Shown here: positions 60,002 to 62,246 of the stretch, one piece after another | How the letters are laid out: every line of letters begins with the position of its first letter | How positions within the stretch are numbered: position 1 is the stretch's first letter | DNA from: Gammaproteobacteria bacterium | Lineage (GTDB): Bacteria > Pseudomonadota > Gammaproteobacteria > Steroidobacterales > Woeseiaceae | Length of the DNA stretch: 64,000 nucleotides | Direction of reading: 5' to 3' | Assembly: GCA_029863305.1 (NCBI GenBank) | Contig: JAOTVR010000004.1 | Location: 1-64,000 of the forward strand | Position numbers and translations under genes: made by a program | The notes under the pieces: generated by a model | Told to the model about the DNA's origin: nothing | Databases searched by the model: none | The model's input: the letters and a program-made list of their open reading frames with translations, nothing else

Positions 60002-60847
60002 ATGAGCGGCACACTATTTGTTGTGGCAACGCCGATCGGTAATCTCGACGATCTGCCGCCGCGAGCGCGTGAGACACTCGCAAGCGTTGATCTGATTGCC
60101 GCCGAGGATACCCGCCACACCGGGCGATTGCTATCGCATTTCGGGATCAAAACACGGCTTTTGGCATTGCACGATCACAATGAAGAGCAACTCGCCGAAA
60201 AGCTCGTCAAGCGTCTCGCCGCGGGTGATTCGATAGCATTGGTCAGCGATGCCGGCACGCCTCTCGTCAGTGATCCGGGTTTTCGACTGCTGCGCGCCGC
60301 CCATCGCGCCGGTGTGGCCGTATCCCCCATCCCGGGGCCGAGTGCGCTGACCGCAGCTTTGTCGGTCGCTGGTCTGCCCACCGATCGCTTCTGTTTCGAG
60401 GGCTTCTTGCCCGCAAAGAAGAAAGCGCGTCGCGACGCGCTCGCCAGCCTCGCGAGCGAGCGCCGCACGATGATTTTTTTTGAATCCGTACATCGAATCG
60501 CCGACACACTCGGCGACCTTGTGACAGAACTCGGCGACGATCGATCCGCTTTTCTGGGCCGGGAGCTCACCAAGTTGCACGAACAGTGTATTCGAGGGAC
60601 GTTGGGAGATCTGCTCGAACAAATTGGCGACGGGACGATTACCGCGAAGGGCGAATTCGTAATTGTCGTTGCAGGAACCACGCACACCGGAAAGTCCTCG
60701 ATCAATATCGATCGCTTGCTTGTCGAGCTTGTCGAGCTGATGCCCGGCAAGCAAGTCGCAAAGGTCATTGCACGGGCGACGGGCGAGAAACGCAATGCCT
60801 TGTATCGACGGCTGCTCGAGCTGACAAAGACAGGGGACGATTCATAA
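60002..60847 (+). CDS. rsmI: 16S rRNA (cytidine(1402)-2'-O)-methyltransferase RsmI
   Basis: A 281-residue SAM-dependent methyltransferase acting on C1402 of 16S rRNA. The start MSGTLFVVATPIGNLDDLPPRA is canonical, followed by AAEDTRHTGRLLSHF, ALVSDAGTPLVSDPGFRLLRAA, PIPGPSALTAALSVAGLPTDRFCFEGFLPAK and a TAKGEFVIVV strand. The end of the gene abuts the stop of a convergent membrane methyltransferase gene. Confidence 0.96.
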   Translation: MSGTLFVVATPIGNLDDLPPRARETLASVDLIAAEDTRHTGRLLSHFGIKTRLLALHDHNEEQLAEKLVKRLAAGDSIALVSDAGTPLVSDPGFRLLRAAHRAGVAVSPIPGPSALTAALSVAGLPTDRFCFEGFLPAKKKARRDALASLASERRTMIFFESVHRIADTLGDLVTELGDDRSAFLGRELTKLHEQCIRGTLGDLLEQIGDGTITAKGEFVIVVAGTTHTGKSSINIDRLLVELVELMPGKQVAKVIARATGEKRNALYRRLLELTKTGDDS

Positions 60848-61288
60848 CCAGCGCCGGACAGTGTCGGCGTATGCCCGATACTGATCGCCGAATTCAGCCA
60901 GCGATTTGGCCTCTTCGTAGGGGCAGAACACCCTGTCGATCACGCAGGCGTAGCTTATGACGATGGCATAGAACGGCACCGAGCCAGCGGCAAGCGCCAG
61001 CCCCAGGAGCATCAGTATCATGCCGAGGTACATCGGGTTGCGGGAAATTGAGTAGACATCGTGCGTCAGCAGCGATGTCGAGCTTGCGGTTGGACAGATC
61101 GGCGTAGCCGCCCGCTTGAATAACCACCAGGCTCTGATCATTATTGCAAAGCCCGCTATGCCTGCAATGCTTGCGGCAACGGGCAGGGCAGGATGCAATG
61201 GCATCGGTGCCAGCAAATGTGCGATGAAGGCGATGAGCACGAAGCTCATGGCAATACGCGGTGGTCGATATTCAATGAGCTTGTGCAT
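60842..61288 (-). CDS. Isoprenylcysteine carboxyl methyltransferase-like membrane protein
   Basis: A 148-residue protein with about four hydrophobic segments and the ICMT/PEMT-like C-terminal motif SISRNPMYLGMILMLLGLALA and PYEEAKSLAEFGDQYRAYADTVRRWL. That fold binds SAM in membrane-embedded methyltransferases. Bacterial members are common and mostly uncharacterised; the substrate is unknown. It starts 11 bases after the marR stop and is surely co-transcribed, so the regulator may control it. Confidence 0.85.
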   Translation of the reverse strand: MHKLIEYRPPRIAMSFVLIAFIAHLLAPMPLHPALPVAASIAGIAGFAIMIRAWWLFKRAATPICPTASSTSLLTHDVYSISRNPMYLGMILMLLGLALAAGSVPFYAIVISYACVIDRVFCPYEEAKSLAEFGDQYRAYADTVRRWL

Positions 61289-61299
61289 AGCCTGATCCC

Positions 61300-61734
61300 C
61301 TAGCCGAGCTTGCTCAATAGTGCTGTCAGTGTTTCGCGCGTCGTCTCGAGCGCATCGTCGGAGATGTCACTGAAGGTTTCTTCGATCACTGCCGCTTCGC
61401 TGCGCCGAATCTCCTGGAAGGACATGCGGCCAGCATTGCTTAGTCGCATTAATCGAGATCGTTTGTGCTGCGGATTCTCGACACTGCGCACCAATCCTCT
61501 GGCGACAAGCGCGTTGATGGTGACCTGTACATGCTGGCGTGACACGTTGTAACGGCGCGCGATCTCCGGCACGGAGAGTTCCAGCCGTGGATGCAGGAAT
61601 TCCATGACCGCTCGATCGGCCGCCGACAAGCCGGTGTCGGCGAGGTACTGATCGGCCACAGCCGCCATGGCGCGAAATAGCCGCCGGATCAGCCAGGTAA
61701 TTTCATACGCGTGCTCGCTGCGCTGTAGTGACAC
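61300..61734 (-). CDS. MarR-family transcriptional regulator
   Basis: A 144-residue winged-helix regulator. The DNA-binding part is LSVPEIARRYNVSRQHVQVTINALVARGLVRSVENPQHKRSRLMRLSNAGR, with the wing NPQHKRSR. N- and C-terminal helices form the dimer interface. I place the start at the GTG at 61734, which has GGAG seven bases upstream. ATG at 61770 is possible but lies inside a palindrome. Two copies of TGACAA-N5-TTGTCA overlap its promoter, pointing to autoregulation. Ligand unknown. Confidence 0.9.
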   Translation of the reverse strand: MSLQRSEHAYEITWLIRRLFRAMAAVADQYLADTGLSAADRAVMEFLHPRLELSVPEIARRYNVSRQHVQVTINALVARGLVRSVENPQHKRSRLMRLSNAGRMSFQEIRRSEAAVIEETFSDISDDALETTRETLTALLSKLG

Positions 61735-61752
61735 GGTCAAGCTCCGAAAAAG

Positions 61753-61769
61753 TGACAAGTGGATTGTCA
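61753..61769. promoter_or_regulatory. MarR operator candidate O1
   Basis: TGACAA-GTGGA-TTGTCA is a 17-base dyad covering the predicted transcription start of the marR gene. Confidence 0.65.
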
Positions 61770-61797
61770 TTATTCCGATTGACAATTTAATTGTCAA
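61769..61797 (-). promoter_or_regulatory. Promoter of the marR-ICMT operon
   Basis: On the minus strand TTGACA (61797-61792) and AATAAT (61774-61769) are 17 bases apart. Transcription would start near 61762, 28 bases before the GTG start, with GGAG in between. Confidence 0.65.
61780..61796. promoter_or_regulatory. MarR operator candidate O2
   Basis: TGACAA-TTTAA-TTGTCA, part of a longer perfect 10-1-10 palindrome (61778-61798), overlaps the -35 element. Same arms and spacing as O1, with centres 27 bases apart. Confidence 0.7.
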
Positions 61798-61834
61798 TAT
61801 CACATCAAACCGGATCGGGCCGCAGCGAATTTAT

Positions 61835-61873: not shown

Positions 61874-62246
61874 GAGAAAGCAGGAGTTGGCCAGACAATC
61901 GCTGTAAGCATGCTGCTTGCAGAGGAAAGTCCGGGCTCCTTCGGACAGGGCGCCAGGTAACACCTGGGGGGCGTGAGCCCATGGAAAGTGCCACAGAAAA
62001 CAAACCGCCGGCTCTGCCGGTAAGGGTGAAAAGGTGCGGTAAGAGCGCACCGCGCGACTGGTAACAGCTCGCGGCACGGTAAACCCCGCCCGGAGCAAGA
62101 CCAAATAGGGGAGTAGCGCTTGTTGCGCGCCGCCGGTCCCGAGCGGACTCCCGGGTAGGTTGCTAGAGGCAGTCGGTGACGACTGTCCCAGATGAATGAT
62201 TGTCGTCGACAGAACCCGGCTTATTGCCGGCTCCTGCTTTCTCACC
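61874..62246 (+). ncRNA. rnpB: RNase P RNA, bacterial class A
   Basis: The catalytic RNA of RNase P, which removes tRNA 5' leaders. Conserved blocks appear in order: the P1 strand GAGAAAGCAGGAG (paired with CTCCTGCTTTCTC near 62231-62243), AGAGGAAAGTCCGGGCTCC (61921-61939), CGCCAGGTAACACCTGG, ACAGAAAACAAACCGCC, AAGGGTGAAAAGGTGCGGTA with AGAGCGCACCGCGCG, CGGAGCAAGACCAAATAGGG, and the closing GACAGAACCCGGCTTA. The full P1 helix and all core blocks show an intact gene of about 373 bases. Ends are set from the P1 pairing. Confidence 0.96.

Follow-up and report, generated by a model that had tools for sequence, protein, structure and literature searches.

A Paired TGACAA-N5-TTGTCA Dyad, a Putative Double Operator, Upstream of a marR Gene in Woeseiaceae and Relatives

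Results

The marR locus and its protein products

The window analysed here is a 64,000-nucleotide (64-kb) stretch of DNA from a gammaproteobacterium of the family Woeseiaceae, the genome of which is represented by 4.25 Mb and is 90% complete. The features of the marR locus are as follows:

60842..61288, minus strand: ICMT/PEMT-type membrane methyltransferase-like protein, 148 aa (PF04191, E 4.3e-9); 11 bp after marR, presumably on the same transcript
61300..61734, minus strand: marR, MarR winged-helix regulator, 144 aa, GTG start (PF12802, E 1.7e-10; AlphaFold mean pLDDT 92.2; best PDB match ST1710, TM 0.84)
61742..61745, minus strand: probable Shine-Dalgarno sequence GGAG, 7 bases before the GTG, read by eye
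61753..61769, no strand: putative proximal operator dyad, exact match, conserved in the same 23 loci as the distal dyad; covers the expected transcription start
61769..61774, minus strand: -10 hexamer AATAAT, 17-bp spacer (promoter scan)
61780..61796, no strand: putative distal operator dyad, exact match, arms near-invariant in 23 paired loci; with the flanking T supplies the -35
61792..61797, minus strand: -35 hexamer TTGACA (promoter scan, 11/12 over both hexamers)
61883..62238, plus strand: rnpB, RNase P RNA gene, divergent, upstream of marR

The initial annotation named a marR gene with a membrane ICMT-like methyltransferase as its neighbour, and both assignments hold at the family level. 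The regulator scored above the curated cut-offs of two MarR profiles (41.4 bits against 27 for PF12802 and 26.6 against 24.6 for PF01047), and its AlphaFold model has the order of the MarR fold, namely alpha1, alpha2, the helix-turn-helix alpha3-alpha4, a beta wing and alpha5-alpha6. The model matched 313 PDB entries at E<=0.001, and the top ones, among the best 50 of the 313, were MarR-type. The protein scored below the NCBIfam cut-offs of the named MarR equivalogs (TcaR, BilQ, FabT, AdcR and others), the best values being 30.1 of 170 bits for TcaR and 29.6 of 125 for BilQ. Across an alignment of 12 homologues that share 47-60% identity with the window protein, recognition helix residues R66, Q67, H68, Q70, T72 and N74 and wing residues N87, P88, H90, K91, R92 and S93 were invariant, as was much of helix 1. 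The invariance of the recognition helix and wing fits a single conserved DNA specificity for these proteins. A tree of the family, built from 32 MarR rows and excluding L018-L022, L026, L027, L037, L042 and L087, had 17 weak branches among its 29 inner ones and very long outgroup branches, and it was set aside.

The neighbouring protein scored 37.2 bits against the PF04191 gathering score of 25, and fell far below the NCBIfam equivalog cut-offs of ICMT (28.7 of 160 bits) and of the methanethiol S-methyltransferase MddA (22.6 of 270 bits). The sequences RNPMYLG and EE, which make up an ICMT-type motif, were invariant in eight aligned relatives. The best structural match of its model (pLDDT 79) was ICMT 5v7p, and this match was weak (E 0.018).

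Two dyads embedded in the predicted marR promoter

The proximal dyad TGACAAGTGGATTGTCA and the distal dyad TGACAATTTAATTGTCA each have 12 of 12 arm bases of TGACAA-N5-TTGTCA correct. They had been described as two identical 6-5-6 dyads with centres 27 bases apart; the arms are indeed the same and the centres (61761 and 61788) lie 27 bp apart, but the 5-bp centres themselves differ (GTGGA vs TTTAA). These are the only two exact sites in the window. Under a first-order Markov model, exact single dyads are expected by chance 0.003 times per 64 kb and 0.2 times per genome, and dyad pairs at 27-bp spacing 1.4e-10 times per 64 kb and about 1e-8 times per genome.

A promoter scan found a sigma70-like promoter, TTGACA-17-AATAAT, on the minus strand at 61797-61769, with 11 of 12 consensus bases, lying within the 45-base minus-strand unit that spans both dyads, TTGACAATTAAATTGTCAATCGGAATAATGACAATCCACTTGTCA. 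The -35 hexamer is composed of the T before the distal dyad and the first five bases of that dyad, and the last base of the -10 hexamer is the first T of the proximal dyad. Because the -10 ends on base 1 of the proximal dyad, the usual start, 6-8 bases further on, would fall near 61762, inside this dyad. The dyads had been said to cover the -35 and the predicted start, which agrees with this geometry: the distal dyad covers the -35 and the proximal dyad covers the last -10 base and the expected transcription start.

An ATG in the same frame, at 61770-61768, overlaps both the -10 and the operator, and translation could not begin there on a transcript from this promoter. With the GGAG 7 bases ahead of it, the GTG at 61734 is the favoured start of marR, as originally argued against the ATG inside the operator. 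A candidate ATG or GTG after the proximal dyad was also found in the paired relatives, some of which have frames that stay open further upstream.

Conservation of the dyad pair in relatives

Conservation was evaluated in 26 non-redundant loci, five copies having been dropped from the 24 loci first read (L028, L029, L030, L035 and L040, which match L006, L007, L008, L011 and L086, respectively). A pair was present upstream in 23 of the 26 loci, with centres 27 bp apart in 17, 28 bp in 3, 26 bp in 2 and 21 bp in 1. Three loci added after this set was made (L191, L194 and L198) have pairs at 28, 27 and 27 bp, giving 26 paired loci of 29; 25 of these 26 pairs are spaced by 26-28 bp. The fragment L026 (residues 90-143, genome G006) entered no count. 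The distant loci L087 and L092 have a single dyad only, and L037 has no site upstream, where the region holds a transposase-like fragment (judged by eye).

At both sites, G2, C4, A5 and positions 12-15 (TTGT) were the same in all 23 pairs, and the 5-bp centre varied at positions 7, 9 and 11 between near-invariant arms; part of this arm invariance is due to selection, because a mismatch limit was applied in choosing the paired loci. In 22 of 23 pairs the base ahead of the distal dyad is T, completing a perfect -35. Spacers of sigma70 promoters range over 16, 17 and 18 bp. With the -10 of the relatives placed as in the window and judged by eye, operator spacings of 26, 27 and 28 bp correspond to promoter spacers of 16, 17 and 18 bp. 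Since a half-site doubles as the -35, operator spacing would follow the promoter spacer. Helical phase was considered as the cause of the spacing and dropped, 26-28 bp being about 2.5-2.7 turns and the range being that of the 16-18 bp promoter spacer. The comparison suggests that the pair is a subfamily-wide composite promoter-operator and more than a local duplication.

Sites were also found at remote homologues. Three Phaeobacter plasmid records that were looked at (34-37% identical) have two dyads 20 bp apart with two mismatches each, and a plasmid-borne Streptomyces homologue (33%) has two one-mismatch sites 31 bp apart. Homologues of marR occur on nine plasmid records and one phage record, of which four of the ten were looked at. 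Carriage of the locus on mobile DNA was considered and rejected, the best plasmid or phage homologue being 37% identical and the locus DNA having no near match in plasmids. In Nitrosomonas aestuarii Nm36 (L042:3001-3346), the marR frame is broken, yet the two dyads persist, with two mismatches in the proximal one.

Position of the putative operator relative to rnpB

The operator lies in the gap between marR and the divergent rnpB, which is present in 16 of 17 genus loci; rsmI is present in 13 of 17, and two of the four loci without it end at a contig edge (L010 and L011). The sites might therefore also, or mainly, control rnpB. The gap between the distal dyad and the conserved rnpB 5′ block is only 31-35 bp in L007, L009, L011 and L034, which places the dyad where an rnpB -35 would fall, and in these species MarR might affect the transcription of RNase P RNA. 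In the window, however, this gap is 83 bp, and rnpB was found in none of the 12 fetched loci (3-7 kb) of more distant relatives, 11 of which have the operator. An rnpB search of 12 genomes included 10 without marR, nine of which gave a full-length rnpB match; these nine congeners have rnpB and no pair. Control of rnpB is accordingly an improbable account of the sites.

No marR or ICMT match was found in the nine rnpB loci of these marR-less congeners. The distance from the rsmI match to rnpB was 24-211 bp in seven of them, and gaps of ~640 bp (L163) and ~1,130 bp (L158) indicate other sequence there. From these junctions, the marR cassette looks to have been inserted at, or lost from, the rnpB-rsmI junction.

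Co-occurrence of the pair with marR

The dyads could instead serve a different, perhaps global, regulator, with their place before marR being incidental. Similar single sites do occur sporadically in marR-less genomes: at least one TTGACAA-N5-TTGTC site was found somewhere in 26 of 60 relatives, 9 with a close marR and 17 without. Against this stands the distribution of the pair. Within the genus, marR was found in 17 of 73 genomes (E<=1e-20); allowing up to 3 mismatches, a 27-bp pair was found in 13 genomes and a 28-bp pair in 4 (G017, G021, G028 and G821), a set that coincides exactly with the 17 genomes carrying marR. In every one of them the pair stands just before marR, whereas none of the 56 marR-less genomes has a pair at 27 or 28 bp at this mismatch limit. 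In eight marR-bearing congeners, exact TTGACAA-N5-TTGTCA was found at the marR locus only, with scattered one-mismatch sites elsewhere.

A search of the window genome for more TGACAA-N5-TTGTCA sites likewise argues against another regulator. There are three exact dyads, two at marR and the third inside a 538-codon frame that is oxidoreductase-like (judged by eye). All 20 one-mismatch sites lie within open frames of 131-405 codons, and because these frames were taken stop to stop and are cut by 1.2-kb stretches, the coding nature of the 20 sites is likely and not proved. No second target promoter was found in the window genome at up to one mismatch, and the regulon appears to be the marR operon itself. 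Service to another regulator is thus very improbable.

More widely, the 27-bp pair occurred in 3 of 369 genomes of a class sample, all among the 6 with marR; of the remaining three, G342 has its pair at 26 bp, G383 at 21 bp, and G323, with stops in its marR frame, has one site. In a phylum sample, a homologue was found in 4 of 398 genomes (E<=1e-15), all with upstream sites: the window genome, G380 and, outside the class, G453 (37% identical, 27-bp pair) and G744 (35%, single site), so that even beyond the class, at 35-37% identity, the site is still present. Thirteen further loci, with other MarR genes of 23-35% identity, served as a control, and one of them (L022) lacks upstream sequence; none of the remaining 12 has a site at up to one mismatch, and a match with two mismatches is present in L021 and L024.

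Partner genes downstream of marR

Of the 17 genus loci, 9 have an ICMT-type gene after marR (L005, L006, L007, L010, L191, L192, L193, L195 and L196). Locus L197 (the same as L034) has an ICMT remnant, L011 reaches a contig end, and in six loci (L008, L009, L012, L013, L194 and L198) the double operator is intact with no ICMT-type gene downstream. The methyltransferase is therefore not essential to the circuit, and it is not a constant partner of the operator. A search of genomes with a lone marR for a free-standing ICMT gene gave no match in G028 and no more than weak ones in G021, G029 and G034. An operator and marR without the enzyme suggest either that the enzyme was lost and the switch kept or that there are targets elsewhere with weaker sites.

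Among the loci not matched to genus genomes, 11 of 12 have a small hydrophobic protein with an LWsWNT-like motif after marR; it is broken in L042, and L038, missed by the motif scan, was counted by its frame. This protein of ~80 residues was seen, for example, at L041:3447-3686 and also in L039, L085, L086, L087, L088 and L091. It had no Pfam match (three copies) and no NCBIfam match (two copies). L041 has an ICMT gene in addition, and a class I methyltransferase is present in L084, L087 and L091.

A different arrangement was observed at L084:2910-3809 (G326), where the double operator precedes, 0.9 kb upstream of marR, a fatty-acid hydroxylase gene (PF04116, OlsE-like at 76 of 475 bits) that lies between operator and marR and overlaps marR by 4 bp; the small hydrophobic protein and the class I methyltransferase follow.

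Because the partner genes vary while the pair stays with marR, the operator appears to follow the regulator, and the controlled genes to change, leaning to methyltransferases.

Discussion

Taking the sequence comparisons together, the two dyads are very probably a double operator of the MarR encoded downstream, which would repress its own promoter and with it the methyltransferase gene, and be relieved by a small molecule. The initial annotation had proposed autorepression by MarR, and as a prediction this is the best reading, supported far more strongly by the relatives than by the window alone. We infer the following steps, from binding through repression of co-transcribed genes to release by a ligand. 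A MarR dimer bound at the distal dyad would cover the -35, and a second dimer at the proximal dyad would lie over the start point and the end of the -10. With dimers in these positions, RNA polymerase would be kept off, and marR and the downstream methyltransferase gene would be shut. A small molecule, plausibly a substrate of the methyltransferase, would then loosen MarR, and the operon would be made until the small molecule had been dealt with. Steric autorepression of this kind, relieved by a ligand, is the likely mechanism here, and an ordinary one.

Some MarR proteins are activators, and this one might activate its own promoter from these sites. That is hardly credible here, as the -35, the -10 and the start of this near-consensus promoter all lie under the sites, and such an arrangement is tied to steric repression in the portions of PMC5401885 and PMC5487221 available to us.

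For the double operator of MarR, the design is economical, a predicted repressor half-site being also the -35. Comparison alone yields a predicted DNA site for this MarR subfamily, which occurs in Woeseiaceae, in Nitrosomonas and in further Pseudomonadota records. To our knowledge, the bacterial roles of small ICMT-like membrane methyltransferases are largely unknown. The predicted site would offer a ready reporter for finding the ligand and, through the ligand, the substrate of these enzymes. More speculatively, and with considerable doubt, the loci might represent an undescribed "switchable methylation" module, in which the MarR subfamily, the fixed composite promoter-operator and the ~80-residue hydrophobic protein would be combined with exchangeable enzymes (ICMT-type, class I methyltransferase or OlsE-like hydroxylase), one shared lipophilic compound or membrane lipid being both substrate and MarR ligand.

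Comparison with known systems

In the open-access PMC literature, the TGACAA-N5-TTGTCA site was not found in print, and no title among those listed dealt with this system (a MarR with such a methyltransferase, a Woeseiaceae MarR or the Nitrosomonas small membrane protein). The general size of MarR sites is treated in the accessible part of PMC6018408. The SlyA, MalR, HpaR, CosR and PA3458 sites are also short and more or less palindromic, but no consensus quoted in the excerpts of PMC8070244 equals TGACAA-N5-TTGTCA. The top Foldseek PDB match of the regulator, ST1710 of Sulfolobus tokodaii (PDB 3gfi), is a DNA complex, but only 21% identical. With ICMT and MddA, the methyltransferase-like protein has in common a PEMT/ICMT-type profile match, at the low scores given above.

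CrtR of Corynebacterium glutamicum is likewise a MarR repressor with a very small regulon and a site overlapping the -35 and -10; it differs in having a divergent carotenoid operon and a TTAA motif needed for binding, and its ligand class is not transferable to the present regulator (PMC5401885, in part). MarR autorepressors as described in the available sections of the review PMC5487221 are alike in the winged-helix dimer, the palindrome in their own promoter and the neighbouring gene as target, whereas here two sites are locked to the -35 and -10. MarR autorepression is a well-known kind of system (PMC5487221 and PMC5401885, both in part); the new elements are the regulator subfamily, the precise site predicted for it and its changing partner genes.
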